Shown in pieces: positions 1,048 to 33,151 of a DNA stretch of 33,218 nt; position 1 is the stretch's first letter; the number at the start of each line of letters is the position of its first letter. The notes under the pieces were generated by a model, which was not told where the DNA came from, ran no database searches, and was given only the letters and a program-made list of their open reading frames with translations. Source of the stretch: Eubacteriales bacterium (lineage in GTDB: Bacteria > Bacillota > Clostridia > Lachnospirales > Lachnospiraceae); contig JAUNPJ010000025.1 of the NCBI GenBank assembly GCA_030536755.1, positions 10,378 to 43,595 of the forward strand, written 5' to 3'. Made by a program: the position numbers and the translations under genes.

Positions 1048-1065
1048 GTTCTCCATCCTTTCTGC

Positions 1066-1128
1066 CTGCCATCATCAGCGTACCGGCGGCACCCGGCGCG
1101 GACGCTCCACGGTGGGAGCGTTTCGGCT
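1066..1128 (-). repeat. Intergenic module copy A (shared boxes plus hairpin)
   Basis: Contains the exact 11-mer CTGCCATCATC (1066-1076, plus strand) and exact 10-mer CGTTTCGGCT (1119-1128). A hairpin (CGCTCC 1103-1108 with GGAGCG 1115-1120) abuts the second box. The same two boxes, with a different hairpin between, occur in the next spacer at 1441-1501. It lies between the stop of the 94-aa gene and the ribosome binding site of the 46-aa gene. Confidence 0.55.
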
Positions 1129-10065: not shown

Positions 10066-10395
10066 ATGAAAGCAAGCTACTGGCAGAGAGGCGAGACAAT
10101 TGATTTCAAAAACAATACCGGAAAAAAAATCGAGGCGACAGATATCGTTGTGATTGGAACCCGGATTGGAGTTGCAGGCGGAGATATTGAGAATGGGGAA
10201 ACTGGCGCTGTGCATGTGACGGGAGTATTTCAGATGAAGAAAAAGGCCGAGGCGGTTGCACTAGGGCAGCTTCTGTATGCAGATAAGGACTCTATGGATA
10301 TCACAGGAACGGAAGACGGGAATATTCCTGCGGGATGGGCGGTATATCCGTCGGGGGCTGACTCGAATTCTGTATATGTGAAATTGCTGGGGTGA
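10066..10395 (+). CDS. Capsid decoration / cement protein (DUF2190)
   Basis: A 109-residue, beta-rich protein. It shows the DUF2190 pattern: polar NNTGKKIEATDIVVIGTRIG, a central NGETGAVHVTGVFQMKKKA with GQLLYADKD, and the closing PAGWAVYPSGADSNSVYVKL. Members of this family sit on or between capsid hexamers and stabilise the packed head. Directly after the capsid gene with GGAGG upstream, the usual place. High confidence from motif and position. Confidence 0.85.
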   Translation: MKASYWQRGETIDFKNNTGKKIEATDIVVIGTRIGVAGGDIENGETGAVHVTGVFQMKKKAEAVALGQLLYADKDSMDITGTEDGNIPAGWAVYPSGADSNSVYVKLLG

Positions 10396-10399
10396 TGAT

Positions 10400-10648
10400 A
10401 TGGAAAAATTGGTGGCTACCCATTATATTTTGCATCTATCGAAGCAGTATGAACCAGGAGACGAACTTCCAGCTTCAGACGAATCTATGGTAAACGCATG
10501 GATTTCTGCTGGAACGGCAATGTGGCAAACAGAAGAAATAAGTTCAGGAGACAGAAGGAAAGCTTTCGCACAAACTGCAGAACCCGGTCTTCCGGCCGCT
10601 GACAGCGAATCGGAGCCAGGCGGAAAATTGATAGGGAAAGTAAGGTGA
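10400..10648 (+). CDS. Hypothetical head-region protein (82 aa)
   Basis: An 82-residue acidic protein beginning with a conserved-looking block (THYILHLSKQYEPGDELP, then MVNAWISAGTAMW) seen in small proteins following DUF2190 genes in Clostridial phages. A proline/serine/glutamate-rich tail follows (about 55-76). It starts with ATG five bases after the preceding stop. Probably a head completion or capsid-associated protein by position; no defined family. Confidence 0.65.
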   Translation: MEKLVATHYILHLSKQYEPGDELPASDESMVNAWISAGTAMWQTEEISSGDRRKAFAQTAEPGLPAADSESEPGGKLIGKVR

Positions 10649-10659
10649 GTTAGTGCAGG

Positions 10660-11004
10660 ATGAGTTTTAAAGAAGCTATTAAGAATGATATTCTTTCGAC
10701 ATTTCTTAATTTGCAGGAATTCGGTGAGATACATATGGTTGATGGGCGCGAGATGACCGTTATCGTGGACAACCTGGAGATGGTGGAACGCGCCAAAGCA
10801 TATAAAAAATTCGACCGATTCGAGGCGGAAAAAGGACCTGTCTACTTAAAACATATCCTGTTCTATGTGTCAAAGGCGGAGTTTGGCGCACTCCCTACGA
10901 TTGGGCGAATGATGCGGTTTGATGGAAAAGAGTACTTTGTAACAGATGCCATTAATGAAGACGGGATTTACAGTATCAGTTTGGAAAGGAAGAGGATTGC
11001 GTGA
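10660..11004 (+). CDS. Head-tail connector / XkdH-like protein (putative)
   Basis: A 114-residue protein, N-terminal helix (FKEAIKNDILSTFLNLQEFG) then a beta-rich half ending FDGKEYFVTDAINEDGIYSISLERKR. This arrangement resembles the small head-closure or stopper proteins that lie between capsid and gp10-like genes in many Gram-positive phages. It overlaps the next gene by four bases. Family is guessed from shape and gene order. Confidence 0.55.
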   Translation: MSFKEAIKNDILSTFLNLQEFGEIHMVDGREMTVIVDNLEMVERAKAYKKFDRFEAEKGPVYLKHILFYVSKAEFGALPTIGRMMRFDGKEYFVTDAINEDGIYSISLERKRIA

Positions 11005-11666
11005 AGCAGCTCCAGGTAGAAGTACCCAGAGAATTTTTAAAGGCAATTGAAGGACGGCTGGATGAGGTCACTGCTTTAAATAAAAAAATAAATGTAGCGG
11101 CAAATGATGTGGCAAAGAAAACGCGGAAGCTCCTTATCCAACGCATGGTTGAGGAATATCAGGGCGAAGTTGCGAGAAAGCCTGCACTGATGAAAAAATC
11201 AAAAATTGAGAAAGCAGGTTCAAAACGCTTTGACGCATCCGTTATTTTTAAATCGCCGGTATATAACATTGAAAATTACCATGTGATTCCGAATCCAAGG
11301 CGTTGGGCACAGAAGGCTGGTACGGCGAAATACAAGAAACTCAGAATCAAGGGAAATGTGCTTCGTTCTGGTACGAAACCTTTGGACCGTGCATTTTTTG
11401 TTACGTTTCGCAATGGCCATACGGCGGTTGTGGAGCGCGCAGAAGGAAAGTATGTGTATAAAAAGAAATATCGGAATACATCGAAGAGCAGGCCCAGAAA
11501 GCGTCATCCGATTAAGGCAAAAGAGAAAATTAGAACTCTTATGTCTCCATCTTACCAGACATCAGTTGGTGGACGCGTTTACGAGAAAGAAGCAGATAAT
11601 ATTCCAGAGATGATGCTGCTTGAAATTGAGAACGTCATTTCGAGAACATTGGAGAAGACAAAATGA
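11001..11666 (+). CDS. Minor tail / head-tail completion protein (gpZ or gp10-like)
   Basis: A 221-residue very basic protein: an N-terminal helical region (about 10-50), a central lysine/arginine-rich part (KYKKLRIKGNVLRSG, RNTSKSRPRKRHPIKAK), and a C-terminal helix (IPEMMLLEIENVISRTLEK). These features fit the phage minor tail protein Z / gp10 group that prepares the head for tail joining. It starts with GTG at 11001, overlapping the previous stop by four bases. The next gene starts within its stop (four-base overlap). Confidence 0.6.
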   Translation: MKQLQVEVPREFLKAIEGRLDEVTALNKKINVAANDVAKKTRKLLIQRMVEEYQGEVARKPALMKKSKIEKAGSKRFDASVIFKSPVYNIENYHVIPNPRRWAQKAGTAKYKKLRIKGNVLRSGTKPLDRAFFVTFRNGHTAVVERAEGKYVYKKKYRNTSKSRPRKRHPIKAKEKIRTLMSPSYQTSVGGRVYEKEADNIPEMMLLEIENVISRTLEKTK

Positions 11667-25349: not shown

Positions 25350-27317
25350 ATGTTAGAAGTATATATGAATATCCTCACGGAGGAGGGCATGAAGCTTCAT
25401 GCAAAGAATTGCGCTGGTGAAAAGATGGAGATTACCAGGTTCGCTATCGGAAATGGTGTATATTCTGGTACGGAATCACAGGCCGCTATCGCCAAAATGA
25501 CAGCCCTTAAGTCCCAGAAAAACAGCTACGGAGTGACCAAGGTAGAAGTTGTCAATTCCTCCACTTGTCTGGTAACTATGGTAGCGGATAATACGAACAT
25601 TGCTGCTGGGTATTACGTCACGGAAGTCGGCGTGTTTGCGAAGGGCCAGGATGGAAGAGAAGTTTTGTATAGCGCAATCATTGCAAAGCCAGATAAACCG
25701 GATTGGATGTCTGCTTATAATGGCGCAACGGTCGGAACGTTGAAATATTATGACTATATATCAATAGGAAATGCCAGCAACGTGGTTCTGGAAGTTGGCG
25801 GTGGCGGAGTCGCGCTTCAGGAAGATTTAGAAGCGATAGAAAGGCGCGTCCTTAACTTAGAACGCGGAGCCGCCGCCTGCATCGGTATTCGGAGAAAATG
25901 CGCCGATGATAAAACACCACAATCAAGTACCGCATGGGAGCGTTGGGGTCAGGGAGTAGATGCTGTGGTGCAGTATGCGCGTGGCGATGAGGAGGTACAG
26001 AATGACCTTATGAAAATGTGGCCGTACAACCTGATCCGCCCGTGTAACCTTCCGCTGGATGCGGAAGAGCCGGTGGCATATCTGGGTGATCCGGAGTTTG
26101 ACTGGTACGGAGCTACCGGCGTGGCCGCCGGAACATCGGTCATGGACGAGATTCCAACGGAGATGTATCTTGCCCACTGGTTCGAGAGCGATGAATCTGG
26201 ACAGATGTGGGAATATAAATGCGTAGCAGATTCCGGAAGATATCCGGGAAGTACTTATGTAAAAGATTTGATGCGGCGTGCAGATGGGTCCACAAAACAG
26301 GCATTCTATTTCCCGATTTTCCTTGGCTCCTTAAATGCAAATGGAAATTATGTTTCGGTAGCAGGTGCGAATCCAAAATACAATTATTCCTGCTCGGTGG
26401 CAAGAACAGCGGTAAAAACAAACGGAAACAATTGGCAGCTAATCGACCACTGGGCGTGGGAAACTTTTACGGAACTGTTGGAGATTATGAGCGCTGATGC
26501 GAACTTCCGAAAAACTTATGGAAGTGGATGTAGCGGGTTTGGAAGTACGGCGTTTCCGGTTTTGAAAGCGGCTTCGGCAACAAACGTAATCACGATGTCA
26601 AATACATATGAAAGCAAATTCCGGGTCGGCATGACCGTAAACGTGGGTACTGCGATATGGAATGCATCCGTGTGCCAGGACCGGCAGATCACTGCGATTG
26701 CGGCATCCCAGACCATGGAGAACGCAATCGAAATCACTCTGGACGGAACTGCCTTCGACGTTCTGGAAACAAGCATGATCTGGCGATGTGCGCAGAGAAC
26801 CGGCGCAACGATTAATATGGCATCACCGAACGGCACCGCAGGTGCCAATGACGGACTTCATTCCGTCAGAACCTTATACGTGGAAGATCTCTATGGAATG
26901 CTGCATACCGGCGTGGATGGCATCAATCTGAAATTCAGTCAGGAAAAGATGGGGAATGAAATGTATGTTTGCACAAACCCATCAAAGTATGGCGATGCAT
27001 ATGCAGACTATACGTTACTGCCGGAGGTATTGGCATTAAATGTAGAAGAAGCAACCGCATTTGATAAAAGCGGATGGATTAAGAAGGAACATTATTTCGA
27101 AGACTACCCAATCATAAATATGCCAGCGGTAGTCAATGAAGGTGCGGGATCAACAACTTATCTTGCGGCATACTGCTGGAATAATAGGAACGGCCAAAGG
27201 CCGTTCTTCGGCGGCTCGTTCCACCTTGGCGCGGGCGTGTCTCCGCGCTCTCGGAACTGCTACTTCGGGTTTTCCTACGCGTACTGGGCCTACGGCTCCC
27301 GTCCTCTTAGAAGATAA
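25350..27317 (+). CDS. DGR-target tail fibre with C-terminal CLec-type variable domain
   Basis: A 655-residue protein. Residues about 1-160 form the same collar-type attachment domain as the fibre at 22816. After a short coiled coil comes a large C-terminal region (about 190-655) of formylglycine-generating-enzyme / C-type-lectin-like character, ending NRNGQRPFFGGSF and ARTYRN-like aromatic-rich text: RNCYFGFSYAYWAYGSRPL. Residues 618-654 lie in the variable repeat. Template versus target changes 11 amino acids, mostly template Asn (AAC) codons, so the surface that binds the host receptor is the diversified part. AAAGGAG supports the ATG at 25350. Confidence 0.9.
   Translation: MLEVYMNILTEEGMKLHAKNCAGEKMEITRFAIGNGVYSGTESQAAIAKMTALKSQKNSYGVTKVEVVNSSTCLVTMVADNTNIAAGYYVTEVGVFAKGQDGREVLYSAIIAKPDKPDWMSAYNGATVGTLKYYDYISIGNASNVVLEVGGGGVALQEDLEAIERRVLNLERGAAACIGIRRKCADDKTPQSSTAWERWGQGVDAVVQYARGDEEVQNDLMKMWPYNLIRPCNLPLDAEEPVAYLGDPEFDWYGATGVAAGTSVMDEIPTEMYLAHWFESDESGQMWEYKCVADSGRYPGSTYVKDLMRRADGSTKQAFYFPIFLGSLNANGNYVSVAGANPKYNYSCSVARTAVKTNGNNWQLIDHWAWETFTELLEIMSADANFRKTYGSGCSGFGSTAFPVLKAASATNVITMSNTYESKFRVGMTVNVGTAIWNASVCQDRQITAIAASQTMENAIEITLDGTAFDVLETSMIWRCAQRTGATINMASPNGTAGANDGLHSVRTLYVEDLYGMLHTGVDGINLKFSQEKMGNEMYVCTNPSKYGDAYADYTLLPEVLALNVEEATAFDKSGWIKKEHYFEDYPIINMPAVVNEGAGSTTYLAAYCWNNRNGQRPFFGGSFHLGAGVSPRSRNCYFGFSYAYWAYGSRPLRR
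27201..27310 (+). repeat. DGR variable repeat (VR)
   Basis: 110 bp at the 3' end of the fibre gene aligns without gaps to the template repeat at 27427-27536 (offset 226). It differs at 15 positions and every one is an A in the template (5 to C, 6 to T, 4 to G); the other 87 non-A template bases are all conserved. The match ends three bases before the stop codon region, where homology disappears. Confidence 0.95.
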
Positions 27318-27338
27318 CCATGCTTTTTTGAGGGGGAC

Positions 27339-27426: not shown

Positions 27427-27536
27427 CCGTTCTTCGGCGGCTCGTTCAACAATGGCGCGAACGTGTCTCCGCGCTATCGGAACTGCAACAACGGGTTTTC
27501 CAACGCGAACTGGAACTACGGCTCCCGTCATCTTAA
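27427..27536 (+). repeat. DGR template repeat (TR)
   Basis: Non-coding 110-bp copy of VR, 226 bases downstream, and upstream of the reverse transcriptase. It is rich in AAC codon-phase triplets (23 adenines; AAC occurs repeatedly in VR reading phase), which is how DGR templates place mutable codons. It remains unchanged while VR diversifies. Confidence 0.95.
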
Positions 27537-27693
27537 CCGATATCGAATGATATTTGACATTATCCTATTTTTGATAATGGCGTCACCTGATTCCATGCCC
27601 CTTGGCAAAAATTCGGCCGACTAATGGCACGGGCCAGTAGGTTCAGTCTCGACCGTCCGTGAGGCCAGGTTAAGAGAAAACTATTAGAAAAAC
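27537..27693 (+). ncRNA. TR-to-RT spacer, probable 3' part of the DGR RNA
   Basis: 157 bases between TR and the reverse transcriptase start. It has a perfect 7-bp inverted repeat CATTATC/GATAATG (27558-27564 with 27573-27579) soon after TR, and a G+C-richer section near 27630-27670. In the BPP-1 DGR a spacer of similar size in this position is needed in the template RNA for priming of mutagenic cDNA. The role here is inferred from position. Confidence 0.5.
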
Positions 27694-28845
27694 ATGAGAA
27701 AAAGGAAGCTGGAAACACATAAATCAAAGAGAGCAGGGTTTCTGTACGAGAAAATCTGTGATCTGGATAACATCAAGGCAGCAATCCTTAATGCATCGAA
27801 GAAAAAACGCAGGCAGAAAAATGTCAGAAGGATCCTGGATAACATAGATTACTATGCGCATCAGATCCAGATGATGCTTCAAAACATGACGTATCATCCG
27901 TCAAAATACGTCACGAAACTGATCAATGACGGAATCCGCCAGAAAAAGCGGAATATTGCAAAACCGCGGTTCTATCCGGACCAGTGCATCCATCACGCAT
28001 TGATCCAGGGAATCGAACCGGTGCTGATGAAAGGCATGTATCATTACTGCTGCGGCTCCGTGAAGGGGCGCGGCGATAAGCGCATCCGGAAAGCGGTAAA
28101 GAAATGGCTGAAGCGGAACCCGAAGAAGTCCAAATACGTCCTGAAGATGGATGTCCATCACTTCTACGAATCCATCGATCACGATGAACTGAAGAAGGTT
28201 CTAGCAAAGAAGATCAAGGACAAACGGGTGTTGTGGCTGTGCGGCGTGATTATCGATTCCTGCCCGAAGGGAATCCCAATCGGAAACTACACGTCGCAGT
28301 GGTTCTGCAATTTATTTCTGGAGGACCTGGATCATAAGATCAAGGCATTCCTCGGAAAAGACTATATCTATGTCAGGTACATCGACGATATGGTTATCAT
28401 TGGACCAAATAAGCGCAAACTCCACCAGGCCAGAAAGATGATTGAAGAAGAGCTGCAAGGAAAGAAACTTCAGATGAAAGGAAACTATCAGGTATTTCGG
28501 TTAAGAAGAAGTCCATTTGAGAAGCACAAGGGGCGGCCGCTTGACTTCCTGGGATGCAAGTTCCACAAGGATGAAACGCTTACCATCCGGAAGTCCATCC
28601 TAAAGCGCATCAAACGCAAGGCAAGGCGTATCGAATGGCTGGCAAACCACCACTACATCAGCGCGAGGAACGCAGCTGGGATGATGTCCTACATGGGACG
28701 GATACACCAGACAAATTCGGAACACTTATTCCGAGATGAAATCAAACCCCGGATAGGGAGTACAAAGAGATTAAGGAGGATTATAAGCGATGAAGCAAAA
28801 ATACAGCGAGCGACCGCAGGAGACGTGGCTGGAAGTGCTGCATAA
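27694..28845 (+). CDS. Diversity-generating retroelement reverse transcriptase
   Basis: A 383-residue basic protein. Visible motifs: N-terminal fingers (FLYEKICDLDNIKAAILNA, then IAKPRFYPDQCIHHALIQ), motif A KMDVHHFYESID (D153), motif B GIPIGNYTSQ (193-202) with the xGxxxSQ form typical of DGR enzymes rather than the QG of group II introns, and motif C YIDDM (229-233). It copies TR RNA with adenine-specific errors into cDNA that replaces VR. It is followed by a 56-base overlap with the next gene in another frame. Ribosome site before the ATG is weak, which may keep expression low. Confidence 0.95.
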   Translation: MRKRKLETHKSKRAGFLYEKICDLDNIKAAILNASKKKRRQKNVRRILDNIDYYAHQIQMMLQNMTYHPSKYVTKLINDGIRQKKRNIAKPRFYPDQCIHHALIQGIEPVLMKGMYHYCCGSVKGRGDKRIRKAVKKWLKRNPKKSKYVLKMDVHHFYESIDHDELKKVLAKKIKDKRVLWLCGVIIDSCPKGIPIGNYTSQWFCNLFLEDLDHKIKAFLGKDYIYVRYIDDMVIIGPNKRKLHQARKMIEEELQGKKLQMKGNYQVFRLRRSPFEKHKGRPLDFLGCKFHKDETLTIRKSILKRIKRKARRIEWLANHHYISARNAAGMMSYMGRIHQTNSEHLFRDEIKPRIGSTKRLRRIISDEAKIQRATAGDVAGSAA

Positions 28846-30058: not shown

Positions 30059-30880
30059 ATGGAAATCAATAAGCTACTTACGCCATACAATCATAACGCG
30101 AGCAATGTCAATCGTATTAAGTATATTGTTATTCATTATGTAGGAGCTATCGGAAGTGCAAGAGCGAATTGCCAGTGGTATGCGGGCGGCAATCGTGGGG
30201 CTTCGGCACATTATTTTGTGGACTTCGATGGCTCCATCTGGCAAAGTGTAGAGGATAAGGACATTGCCTGGCATTGCGGGGCAGCTTCTTACAGACATCC
30301 GGAGTGCCGAAATGCGAACTCCATTGGAATTGAGATGTGTGTTCGGAATGATGGCAACAAGACAGATACCAGCCACGATTGGCGATTTGAGGACGCAACC
30401 GTACTGGCCACAATTCAATTGACTAAAAAATTAATGGAACAGTATCATGTTTCGGCGGACCGCGTAATCCGGCATTACGACGTAACAGGAAAAATTTGCC
30501 CGAATCCATATGTATACAATACTGGTAATCACACCTGGGATGAATTCAAAGCTGCGCTGGAAAATAAATCCGGTTGGTGGATGGAGAGCGACGGATGGAG
30601 ATTCTACCTGGGAAATGGTGAGCCGGTGCGGAATGATTGGTACTGTTCGGACGGCGGCTGGTACTGGTTCGATGGGGCTGGCCGGATGGTAACGGATACC
30701 TGGTATCAGTACAAGGAACATTGGTACTATCTTGGCTCGGATGGAAGAATGGAAAAGGGTCTACAGGACATCAATGGCAAGTGGTACTACCTGGACCAGG
30801 AAGGCCGAATGTCCATGAATCCGGTCGTACTGACGCCGGATAAGGATGGCGCGCTACAGTATCCCGGATTGGCACAGTAA
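30059..30880 (+). CDS. Endolysin: N-acetylmuramoyl-L-alanine amidase with CW-type repeats
   Basis: A 273-residue protein. Amidase_2 domain 15-155: zinc ligands H26 (IVIHYVG), H139 (VIRHYDVTGKICP) and C147, with E92 (SIGIEM) and H51 in the usual positions. After a linker come choline-binding-type repeats of the form GWYWFDGAGRMVT and HWYYLGSDGRM, WYYLDQEGRMS (about 177-253). It cleaves the amide between MurNAc and the peptide; the repeats bind wall teichoic or lipoteichoic polymers. There is no signal peptide, so release depends on the holin. Confidence 0.93.
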   Translation: MEINKLLTPYNHNASNVNRIKYIVIHYVGAIGSARANCQWYAGGNRGASAHYFVDFDGSIWQSVEDKDIAWHCGAASYRHPECRNANSIGIEMCVRNDGNKTDTSHDWRFEDATVLATIQLTKKLMEQYHVSADRVIRHYDVTGKICPNPYVYNTGNHTWDEFKAALENKSGWWMESDGWRFYLGNGEPVRNDWYCSDGGWYWFDGAGRMVTDTWYQYKEHWYYLGSDGRMEKGLQDINGKWYYLDQEGRMSMNPVVLTPDKDGALQYPGLAQ

Positions 30881-30939: not shown

Positions 30940-31767
30940 TTATTCTTGGTAGATTTCCGGAGAAACTGGAAACGCATCGGAAGTAACACTGTAGTATGGA
31001 TACTCGTCCAACGGCGTAAAATGAAGTGCGCGGAACAATTTGCCTGCTGGCCACAAGCCTTGCTTTCCAGGGTGCTTCCACCAATATAGGCGGTTAACGC
31101 TCATGCTTCCGGATGGCCTAGCAGCAGACGCATCGTTATCGAACAGATGAATCAATGCCTGATGAATTTTTTCAGCGTCATCATCCGAAAATCCGGTCAA
31201 TTCGGCTAGTTGCGGGAATATGGAACCATAAGCCACATACGCACCGTGAGAAATGATGTGGCGAACACCAAATGTGCTGGAGTCCTTTATCGGCCCGTCC
31301 TCGACACTATTTATTGACTTGGTGATTCCAACATCCTGAATTTCAACAGGAGCAATCGACCTAGCAATACCGATCGTTACTGGGCCGCGTATTCCAACGG
31401 AAGCAGAATCCCCCTTAAAAGGAAATAACTGCCCGAATGCCCGAACATCAAACCAGGTATTAGATGCGATTCTGATGATTTTCTGAACATCCGCTTTGTT
31501 TTTCTTATCAATTTCAGACATTAATTCCTTGTTGCCCTTAACGATGCTGACAATACTTAGTGACCCGCTTGAAACGGTAGGGACCATGAGGAGAGGCTCC
31601 CCCATTTCAATCAGTCTGTCACGGATTTTTCGTTTCAAACACACATCTGAAATTTCCCCAAATCCGTCCATATCTTGGCGCGGACGCCCTCCATTCAGCG
31701 GATCGCCGTTGGGATTACACATTTCCGCCGTTATGATAACGGCAAAATCGATTTTATTTTTCAGCAT
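30940..31767 (-). CDS. cas7: Stand-alone type I-C Cas7 (Csd2) homologue
   Basis: A 275-residue protein close to the usual Csd2 length. The I-C Cas7 signature is plain from the start: NKIDFAVIITAEMCNPNGDP, then DGFGEISDVCLKRKIRDRL, later WFDVRAFGQLFPFKG, GIRGPVTIGIARS, and FDNDASAARPSGSMSVNRLYWWKH. In host systems Cas7 forms the crRNA-covering backbone of Cascade. Here no other cas gene or CRISPR array is present. The start at 31767 is better spaced from GAGGG than 31770; both lie inside the AP2-gene end. The C-terminus after about residue 245 (HFTPLDEYPYYSV) looks divergent. Possible roles: decoy subunit that poisons host Cascade, or captured fragment. Confidence 0.9.
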   Translation of the reverse strand: MLKNKIDFAVIITAEMCNPNGDPLNGGRPRQDMDGFGEISDVCLKRKIRDRLIEMGEPLLMVPTVSSGSLSIVSIVKGNKELMSEIDKKNKADVQKIIRIASNTWFDVRAFGQLFPFKGDSASVGIRGPVTIGIARSIAPVEIQDVGITKSINSVEDGPIKDSSTFGVRHIISHGAYVAYGSIFPQLAELTGFSDDDAEKIHQALIHLFDNDASAARPSGSMSVNRLYWWKHPGKQGLWPAGKLFRALHFTPLDEYPYYSVTSDAFPVSPEIYQE

Positions 31768-32461
31768 CATTGCCCTCGCTATCTGCACATTTATGCGTCT
31801 TCTTATATTCCTCATACCATTCCAGAAAATTTCCGAATACCTGTTTTTCTGCTTCCTCTCTGGCTTTTTTGCACACTTCAATGTCAGATGAAGAACATAG
31901 ATAATATTGTTTTTTCTGAAATTTAATTGATGCTATATACCTTTGTTTTGAAGTACACCAACTTACACCTCGTATGCCGGTGGTAGTGTTTTTATTTGGA
32001 TTTGTCTTTTTTATAAGAGAAATATTAGTATCTGCTATCATCATATCATGTAATTTGCGATGCTGCTCTTCTCTATTTTGTTTATCTAAACACCCGCACG
32101 ATTTTGCGTTTCCGCTAGTAAGCGAAGAAACATATGTATCAATACTTCCTCCACAATCACATTCACAATGCCATATAGCTCCGTATTTCCCACTTTTTAC
32201 ATAATACTTCGCAGTCAATAAGCCAAATCGTTTTTCGGAGATATCAATACTATTGCGACGCTTTTTATGAATGTTTTCTGCATTCAAGCAACCGCACGAA
32301 GAAGTATTTCCGTTTTTTAAAAAGTCCCCTCTAACAGATACTATTGTTCCACATTGACATTCACAAATCCAAAATATGCGCTTACCTTTCTTGGATTCAT
32401 CTTTTTTTAAAACCTTCAATCGTCCATATGTTCTTCCTGTTATATCGATTAATCCAGGCAT
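31754..32461 (-). CDS. AP2-domain DNA-binding protein with two zinc-knuckle repeats
   Basis: A 235-residue protein. Two copies of a unit with IDITGRTYGRLKVL / IDISEKRFGLLTA then W-C-C-C-G and SCGCL: cysteines at 33, 35, 37, 56, 58 and 99, 101, 103, 122, 124. The C-terminal AP2 domain (about 160-206) has GIRGVSWCTSKQRYIASIKF and YYLCSSSDIEVCKKAREEAE. AP2 domains in phages usually accompany homing endonucleases; no HNH residues are seen here, so this is likely a DNA-binding protein or a relic of one. It starts after GGGGAG at 32461 and its 3' end overlaps cas7. G+C appears lower than the tail genes, suggesting transfer. Confidence 0.8.
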   Translation of the reverse strand: MPGLIDITGRTYGRLKVLKKDESKKGKRIFWICECQCGTIVSVRGDFLKNGNTSSCGCLNAENIHKKRRNSIDISEKRFGLLTAKYYVKSGKYGAIWHCECDCGGSIDTYVSSLTSGNAKSCGCLDKQNREEQHRKLHDMMIADTNISLIKKTNPNKNTTTGIRGVSWCTSKQRYIASIKFQKKQYYLCSSSDIEVCKKAREEAEKQVFGNFLEWYEEYKKTHKCADSEGNDAEK

Positions 32462-32482
32462 TATGCACACTCCCCGCAACAA

Positions 32483-32848
32483 TTATAAAGACTCTTGTTC
32501 TCCGCTGTCGTTGTTCATAATTTCAAGAAATACTGTGTATGAAAAAAAATATCTGTCATGCTCCGGAGGAGTACGCAAACCAGCCTCCCAGCTTTCAAGA
32601 GTTCTTCTCTTAATCCCATATGAATAAGAGAACCTAACTTGTGAAAGACCTGTCATTTGGCGTATTTCGGCAAACGAACAACGAACCATCTCGTATATCC
32701 TCGTAAGGATATCGACAACCACGTCAGCGTCTTCAAACGAATCCATCCAGTCCTGCCAGCCTCTTTCCGCAATATACATGTCCAGATCAGAATACTCTTG
32801 GGCCTCACGATACAATTGTACAAATGTACGATATGAAAGATAATACAT
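32483..32848 (-). CDS. HTH protein, candidate anti-CRISPR-associated-type autoregulator
   Basis: A 121-residue protein. The C-terminal part (about 59-96) is a helix-turn-helix of XRE-like type: FAEIRQMTGLSQVRFSYSYG then IKRRTLESWEAGLRTPP. An N-terminal acidic helical part precedes it. The ATG shares one base with the stop of the 79-aa gene (TGATG), with GGAGG inside that gene, so the two are coupled. HTH partners in phage anti-CRISPR operons (Aca proteins) repress their own promoter; this one sits upstream of the cas7 gene and could bind the inverted repeat at 33128-33144. The Aca comparison is by architecture only. Confidence 0.75.
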   Translation of the reverse strand: MYYLSYRTFVQLYREAQEYSDLDMYIAERGWQDWMDSFEDADVVVDILTRIYEMVRCSFAEIRQMTGLSQVRFSYSYGIKRRTLESWEAGLRTPPEHDRYFFSYTVFLEIMNNDSGEQESL

Positions 32849-33087
32849 CACATTGCCTCCTTTTTCATCCATTCTACATATGGTTCAATGTCCATCGCAA
32901 ACTCGACTGCTTTTCGCCCGACCAGTTTGATAGCTTGAGTCTTCGTCATTAATTCCCTTACACGGAAATCATATTGTTCGGTGCCAAGCCATTCCTCCGC
33001 ATATTCCTTGTTGGAAAATACATATACCAGGTGTTCCCACCGGCCAAAATCAAATTTGCTTGATACTCCATAAATTTTTCTTTTCAT
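32848..33087 (-). CDS. Unknown 79-aa protein heading the cas7 operon
   Basis: A 79-residue mixed-charge protein. The sequence starts MKRKIYGVSSKFDFGRWEHL, has VYVFSNKEYAEEWLGTEQYDF, and ends AMDIEPYVEWMKKEAM. No family or motif is recognised. The start at 33087 has GGAGGGA 5-11 bases upstream; the longer frame to 33132 would cross the -10 region. It is the first gene after the promoter and is translationally coupled to the HTH gene. Because small unknown proteins at the head of such operons are often anti-defence proteins, it is a candidate; that is inference only. Confidence 0.65.
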   Translation of the reverse strand: MKRKIYGVSSKFDFGRWEHLVYVFSNKEYAEEWLGTEQYDFRVRELMTKTQAIKLVGRKAVEFAMDIEPYVEWMKKEAM

Positions 33088-33122
33088 ATCGCTCCCTCCT
33101 TGCCTTACTAACTTATGTCTAT

Positions 33123-33151
33123 AATATACCACGCAATGTGTGGTAAGTCAA
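33123..33151 (-). promoter_or_regulatory. Sigma-A promoter of the cas7 operon with operator in the spacer
   Basis: On the minus strand TTGACT (33151-33146), exactly 17 bases, TATATT (33128-33123). The spacer plus the first -10 base forms an imperfect inverted repeat, ACCACAC-ATT-GCGTGGT (33144-33128; 6 of 7 pairs). This is the arrangement expected for a dimeric HTH repressor that blocks RNA polymerase. Confidence 0.85.

Follow-up and report, generated by a model that had tools for sequence, protein, structure and literature searches.

A type I-C Cas7 gene with no other cas gene beside it is carried on a phage contig of a Lachnospiraceae bacterium (Eubacteriales bacterium, assembly GCA_030536755.1). 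It lies in the 33,218-nucleotide stretch analysed here, which we call the window: positions 10,378 to 43,595 of contig JAUNPJ010000025.1, or G000:C95:10378-43595, where G000 is the host genome and the right edge is the contig end (43595). We read this orphan as a phage-captured type I-C Cas7 that was turned into an anti-CRISPR and acts as a sham subunit of the Cascade backbone. The mechanism is argued from the precedent of other Cas-derived inhibitors, and we would give the reading a probability of roughly 55%. The strongest new evidence comes from relatives of the window and not from the window itself.

The gene occupies 31767-30940 on the minus strand, starts with ATG and encodes a full-length protein of 275 amino acids (aa). 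It scores 256.4 bits against TIGR02589, the type I-C Cas7/Csd2 family, where the curated cut-off is 182.25. It also matches PF05107 (216.2 bits) and PADLOC Cas7c (8.8e-77), while the type I-B Csh2 model gives 76 bits against a cut-off of 171.55. Solved I-C Cas7 chains align to residues 3-248, with E 2e-35 to 7kha from D. vulgaris, and the nearer working Cas7s of the host family are 44-52% identical to it. An initial annotation, made from the sequence alone, had described a lone, undecayed I-C Cas7 as the last of four minus-strand genes behind one promoter, and that description stands. The first gene (32848..33087, minus) encodes a 79-aa protein with homologues in viral contig L042 (68% over 66 aa) and Streptococcus phage PH15 (55% over 40 aa). 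The second (32486..32851, minus, with a GTG start or an overlapping ATG) encodes a helix-turn-helix (HTH) protein of 121 aa, a candidate autorepressor of the operon, for which no Pfam or NCBIfam model scores above its cut-off. The third (31757..32464, minus, about 235 aa) overlaps the Cas7 start by 11 nucleotides. It had been labelled zinc-knuckle/AP2; a zinc-ribbon/AP2-like character remains, but Pfam AP2 reaches only E 0.097, below cut-off, and phrog_374 (2.5e-41) makes the protein HNH-endonuclease-like. The annotation had also stated that nothing else of a CRISPR-Cas system is present. That is correct for the contig pieces, the window and its left neighbour, in which 33 cas proteins other than I-C Cas7 (cas1, 3, 4, 5, 6 and 8 of types I-C and I-B, plus I-B cas7) gave no tblastn match at E 0.01 and no CRISPR array was found, but it does not extend to the host, which has a type I-B locus elsewhere.

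Lone I-C Cas7 genes are rare. A match to I-C-like Cas7 appears in 80 of 397 genomes of the host family, at 87 places, all of which were inspected: the window, 29 loci with 1.5-kb flanks and 57 fetched stretches. Cas8c accompanies 28 of the 29 flanked loci, and the remaining one, L008, is without any other cas gene. Among the fetched stretches, 55 have cas3, cas5 or cas8; the other two are a cas1-cas4-cas7 remnant (L231) and a match of just 33 residues (L233). A full-length lone I-C Cas7 is thus found at two of the 87 places. Within the window's genus, one of three genomes has an I-C-like Cas7, and it is the window's own. Across 381 genomes of the class, 61 Cas7 places reach 1e-30, and Cas8c stands beside 59 of them (paired by eye); the other two are the window, without Cas8c, and G578, truncated by the end of its contig.

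The rare exceptions resemble each other. Species genomes were scanned with an alignment of five orphan Cas7s; from the 383 relatives that this gave, the top 80 were examined. Seventy-seven of these are accompanied by cas8 and most other cas genes, and three by no cas gene at all: L050 (the same place as L008, in genome G242), L098 (a Roseburia metagenome-assembled genome) and L104 ([Clostridium] symbiosum ATCC 14940). Directly upstream of Cas7, each of the three cas-less loci has a gene homologous to the HTH gene, and none of the 77 others has one (searched at E 1e-4 over up to 8 kb). Viral contigs add three orphan loci, L037, L038 and L039, which are close relatives of L104; in L038 the HTH gene seems, by eye, to be broken, and in L037 its position would fall beyond the contig end. 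There are, then, four orphan lineages (the window, L050, L098 and the C. symbiosum type), with 44-50% mutual identity, and in each of them an HTH gene of this kind precedes Cas7. Of the four, only the window has an HNH-like gene between the two. Lysin genes adjoin the phage orphans: peptidoglycan-binding and NlpC-like in L008/L050, an M15 peptidase in L104 and CHAP in L038 and L039, so that the C. symbiosum-type cassette adjoins different lysins in different loci. A search for the same operon in other prophages, proposed with the initial annotation, comes out positive, the HTH-Cas7 layout recurring in other lineages, with the phage ones beside lysis genes. A scan of the viral contigs with the window Cas7 as a single protein gave no match. 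All four Cas7 matches in a phage collection (L004, L005, L006 and L007) were dropped because other cas genes are present; we read them, partly by eye, as bacterial DNA in faecal virome samples.

The orphans also share a promoter architecture. The operon promoter, TTGACT-17-TATATT (10 of 12 consensus positions, at 33151-33123), holds an inverted repeat, TACCACACATTGCGTGGTA, between its -35 and -10 boxes, a candidate operator; promoter and repeat together span 33121..33151 (minus). Overall, the region has no excess of promoter-like sites (7, against 5.9 ± 2.0 in shuffles); the operon's is the one that holds the candidate operator. Members of the HTH family are also present where there is no Cas7: in three Streptococcus phages (PH15, Javan242 and Javan273) and three viral contigs (L040-L042). 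An inverted repeat placed exactly between -35 and -10 was found in the window, L104, L039, L098, L050, L040, L041, PH15 and Javan242, and so in all four orphan lineages; in Javan273 none is present in the 72 bases examined. A pattern built from these sites matches once in the window and never in 100 shuffles, but since it includes the window's own site, the single match shows only that there is no second copy nearby. The same pattern has 16 matches in viral contigs, six of them with an HTH-family match downstream (one being PH15 again) and none with Cas7; four of the 16 contigs (L238, L240, L242 and L243) look like copies of each other. Anti-CRISPR operons under Aca control combine an HTH gene with an inverted repeat in the promoter, and the window operon has both. 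From this layout of gene and repeat, the HTH protein would be expected to repress the operon promoter. Downstream of the promoter repeat in L246, at about 10141-11010, is a 290-aa protein that joins a zinc/AP2-like N-terminal part (by eye) to an HTH-family match. The shared promoter repeat can also serve to look for more cargo operons in phages.

The orphan proteins depart from the Cas7 consensus at many positions that are otherwise constant. Conservation of 90% or more among 112 working Cas7s from the same broad group defines 91 columns. Of these, 18 are changed in the window, 24 in L050, 20 in L098 and 16 in L104, whereas working Cas7s left out singly have a median of 2 changes and never more than 9. 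Residues 15, 17, 62, 147, 190 and 258 are among the changed positions. Cys17 and Tyr258 occur in all four orphans, and each in none of the 112 working proteins. In all four, Leu or Ile also replaces the Lys that most working Cas7s have at residue 190. Most of the basic positions are retained: at 17 columns, 90% or more of working Cas7s have Lys or Arg, and of these columns the window keeps 14, L050 13, and L098 and L104 16 each. According to the accessible part of PMC7684278, conserved basic residues of I-C Cas7 touch the backbone of the CRISPR RNA (crRNA). The Cas7 frame is open in every orphan lineage, and dN/dS is 0.14-0.21 in all six pairs of the four C. symbiosum-type copies, so the gene is maintained by purifying selection in that one lineage. 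In a tree of 98 rows, the seven orphan rows fall on one side of a branch with SH-aLRT support of 98 to 100, on long branches; placed singly, they take different positions, mostly with weak support. Common descent of the orphan Cas7s is likely, but given the long branches and the inconsistent single placements, we do not claim a single origin.

One lineage carries a further element with a connection to type I-C systems. About 150 nucleotides past the C. symbiosum-type Cas7, on the opposite strand, a hairpin is followed by GTGGATTGAAA, which is the 3' end of I-C repeats. The exact core with a 6-bp stem is present in four of four C. symbiosum-type orphan loci. Under a looser test (at most one mismatch, stem of at least 5), none is seen in 20 window shuffles, and one other site in real sequence qualifies, L002:9026 on the window's own contig. 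That site, with one mismatch, a stem of 7 that includes G-T pairs and a position inside a reading frame, was dropped because it is missing from the matches of a covariance model at E 10. When viral contigs were scanned for the exact repeat, it turned up in four: three are the orphan contigs, and the remaining one, L234, stops 150 nucleotides away from it, where the Cas7 end would be. The covariance model was made from 31 I-C repeats picked from arrays and was searched against 190 kb. Its top matches are the C. symbiosum-type repeat in five of five loci (21.8 bits, E 0.028), and the true array repeats of L071 score 50.3 bits, so the phage copy is a degenerate repeat. The best match in the window is 13.5 bits at E 2.5, and we recognise no solitary repeat there. 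The repeat strand has a promoter, TTGACA-17-TAAAAT (11 of 12), in a stretch with four promoter-like sites against 1.3 ± 1.2 in shuffles. The 41-nucleotide repeat stretch is matched in folding by 15 of 200 shuffles; the whole candidate transcript folds better than 200 of 200. A terminator was read by eye, and the terminator scan listed none on that strand. A block of 59 columns is unchanged across the five repeat loci, but these are close relatives and count as one observation, not five. The C. symbiosum host's own CRISPR repeat has a different stem and a changed handle. Rfam places the phage repeat below cut-off (CRISPR-DR9, E 0.057), and it also missed all the true I-C repeats of L071. Taken by itself the repeat is weak; the promoter, the unchanged block, the fold of the whole transcript and the position near Cas7 make the case stronger, and we treat the unit as a candidate RNA anti-CRISPR. 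Elsewhere, in a Roseburia I-C locus, a degenerate lone I-C repeat (L071, 2793-2817, minus, 23.7 bits) lies just upstream of cas3 and outside the array; it is possibly a regulatory crRNA-like element.

For the sham subunit, we propose the following course. The operon would be switched on during infection. Because the RNA-binding surface appears to be retained, the orphan Cas7 would bind I-C crRNA or its precursor (pre-crRNA), and it would then enter or cap the host's Cas7 filament. The altered residues, presumably at subunit contacts, would leave Cascade unable to seat its partners or to open target DNA. Later, the HTH protein would shut the operon down at the inverted repeat in its promoter. 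Two of the four orphan hosts are suited to such a course: Cas8c, the other I-C genes and arrays are present in both the Roseburia genome (G398) and C. symbiosum ATCC 14940 (G399). This supports a link to type I-C, but against a background of 80 of 397 family genomes with an I-C-like Cas7 match, it is suggestive only. The Cas8c of C. symbiosum ATCC 14940 (L173, G399:C34:44732-47320) is itself unusual: the C-terminal part of the Cas8c model matches its 883-aa frame three times. That part is the region that yields Cas11c, as if extra copies had been fused in tandem, and a 784-aa frame in G658:C86 is similar.

Several results weigh against the sham subunit. First, the window's host G000 has no Cas8c, and hence no I-C system, so that the antagonism of its own host's I-C Cascade, as the initial annotation had it, does not apply here. 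Its Cas1 is found at one place, a type I-B locus on another contig with an array of 20 spacers and genes for Cas6, Cas8a1/Csx8, Cas7/Cst2, Cas5, Cas3, Cas4 and Cas1b (Cas2 was not looked for). These pass the full-family cut-offs except for Cas5, which passes the short Cas5 domain model. G001, of the same genus, has Cas1 and an array with a repeat nearly identical to that of G000. Since its own host has only type I-B, the target of the window phage would be related hosts bearing I-C. G242, the host of L050, has neither Cas8c nor Cas1. Second, no spacer matches the orphan-bearing contigs clearly above chance. The search used 1938 spacers from arrays of the fetched loci, with some letters of the L173 array masked, and 98 from arrays of host and sister genomes; among 18,956 matches of the former set, eight have at least 19 identical bases, against four for shuffled spacers. 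The best is a spacer of L059 (20 of 34 bases), which matches four homologous C. symbiosum-type loci. The host's I-B repeat likewise finds at best 19 of 30 bases on the phage contig, in the window, where shuffles give 18-20. Third, the association of the HTH gene with cas-less Cas7 (nominal exact probability 1.2e-5) is weaker than it appears, as the HTH of L050 was itself a query and the L104 one shares 74% identity with another query, which leaves L098, at 26% to its nearest query, as the sole fresh test. Fourth, the Roseburia orphan L098 lies near housekeeping genes and, by eye, is not clearly in a prophage. Fifth, neither the simple scan nor the covariance model finds a repeat unit in the window, L050 or L098. 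Finally, all six HTH-operon relatives that were first seen are without Cas7, and three of the six carry HNH-like cargo similar to the window's. The antagonist role proposed in the initial annotation is thus supported in part: the gene is intact and recurrent, its operon looks self-regulated, otherwise fixed residues are changed, two of the four hosts carry I-C and one lineage adjoins a candidate I-C RNA anti-CRISPR, set against a host without I-C and an HTH operon that also exists without Cas7.

The repeat beside the C. symbiosum-type gene admits a more elaborate version, which we offer tentatively and hold to be less likely than not. The anti-CRISPR would have two parts, a Cas7 mimic and a matching repeat RNA that together form a dead I-C filament, and the window lineage would retain the protein part behind a self-repressed promoter of this type. 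It is doubtful, though conceivable, that the orphan works as an RNA decoy instead. On its own it would then coat crRNA, its precursor or the repeat RNA of the phage, and so starve Cascade without entering it. The retention of 13-16 of the 17 basic columns while other conserved columns were lost would suit a decoy, as would a repeat RNA unit next to Cas7 in the C. symbiosum lineage. The lack of any such unit in three of the lineages speaks against it, as does the order of I-C Cascade assembly proposed in the accessible part of PMC7684278, in which a Cas5c-Cas7 clamp forms first and Cas7 then assembles cooperatively.

The operons without Cas7 raise the question of whether the gene has to do with CRISPR defence at all. 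Homologues of the HNH-like gene are found in L040, L044 and L045 (E 2e-23 to 2e-6), while the zinc-ribbon gene of L042 is of another kind. Five of the six Cas7-less operons adjoin lysins, namely the three Streptococcus phages (as annotated), L040 (an amidase) and L042 (NlpC-like); the lysin family search did not include L041. The HTH model matches 255 of the 397 family genomes, nearly always over the DNA-binding half only, with full-length matches in five: G000, G242, G385, G316 and G164. An operon type with other cargo in other phages, together with a window host that lacks I-C, would fit a moron gene in which an RNA-binding Cas7 is reused, for example in protecting or regulating phage RNA. 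We consider this unlikely, in view of the solitary I-C repeat beside one lineage and the I-C systems in two of the four hosts.

Action across types, against the host's own type I-B system, would find its target in the locus and array that G000 does have, and the accessible part of PMC13131331 describes a Cas3-like inhibitor, AcrVIA2, that acts across CRISPR types. We regard it as quite improbable here: the window Cas7 is far closer to I-C than to the I-B Csh2 family by the scores given above, the host's I-B Cas7 belongs to yet another family (Cst2), and the other two orphan hosts with Cas1 have I-C. Least probable of all is that the gene is the decaying remnant of an I-C locus once captured, for although the branches are long, many conserved residues are lost and one HTH gene looks broken, the frames are open in all lineages, the same operon type and promoter repeat persist in four of them, and purifying selection makes decay already unlikely for the C. 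symbiosum copies.

The contig around the operon is that of a phage. Over its 43.6 kb it carries genes for terminase gpA, an amidase and a tail fibre, the last with a reverse transcriptase next to it. The amidase (30059..30880, plus), which has choline-binding repeats and belongs to the lysis module, is convergent with the four-gene operon. The initial annotation had placed the operon between the lysis genes and the probable phage end; the first of these neighbours is confirmed, but the contig stops at 43595, so the phage end and the DNA to the right of the window are out of view. A likely diversity-generating retroelement is found at the tail-fibre gene (25350-27317), comprising two repeats that are 82% alike, an RT-18 RNA and the reverse transcriptase; its parts fall at window positions 27201-27331, 27427-27557, 27596-27676 and 27694-28845. 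A type II hammerhead ribozyme above the Rfam cut-off lies in the phage at window positions 1060-1128 (minus). An ATPase resembling ParA is also encoded on the phage contig, together with a gene that weakly matches ParB (L002, 5374-8089); the two may point to a plasmid-like prophage.

The closest known relative in kind is the Cas7/Csd2 of type I-C Cascade (7kha), which the orphan resembles by family match and from which it differs in standing without Cas5c, Cas8c, Cas3 or an array beside it. To acr operons regulated by Aca proteins, the likeness is a phage operon with an HTH gene and a promoter inverted repeat; the differences are that here the HTH gene is upstream of the cargo and that other phages have HNH-like or other cargo in its place. 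The accessible part of PMC10651486 reports that a solitary I-C repeat beside AcrIC5 (RacrIC1) inhibits type I-C and that such units often have no association with cas genes. The C. symbiosum lineage is similar in its lone I-C-like repeat with a promoter, there near Cas7 as RacrIC1 is near AcrIC5; it differs in that the C. symbiosum unit is convergent with Cas7 and has a stem shorter than array repeats, and the window has no such unit. A viral type IV-B system and a viral Cas4, not a lone Cas7, are described in the accessible part of PMC10848311. Our literature search on orphan or phage Cas7, judged by titles and the start of abstracts and with most subscription papers outside its coverage, returned no paper describing an orphan I-C Cas7 and, within the same coverage, none describing a solitary repeat beside a cas gene.

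The precedent on which we lean is a set of anti-CRISPRs derived from Cas proteins, AcrIB3, AcrIB4 and AcrVIA2, reportedly described by Katz et al. in 2024. The orphan is like them a lone Cas homologue on a phage, as the window contig and the viral contigs L037-L039 attest, and it differs in deriving from type I-C Cas7. As far as the accessible part of PMC13131331 goes, those three come from Cas5, Cas8b and Cas3, and AcrIB3 is a Cas5-like sham subunit of Cascade, a precedent for an inhibitor made from a Cas protein. If our reading is right, the backbone subunit of Cascade would join Cas5, Cas8b and Cas3 among the Cas proteins that have become inhibitors.

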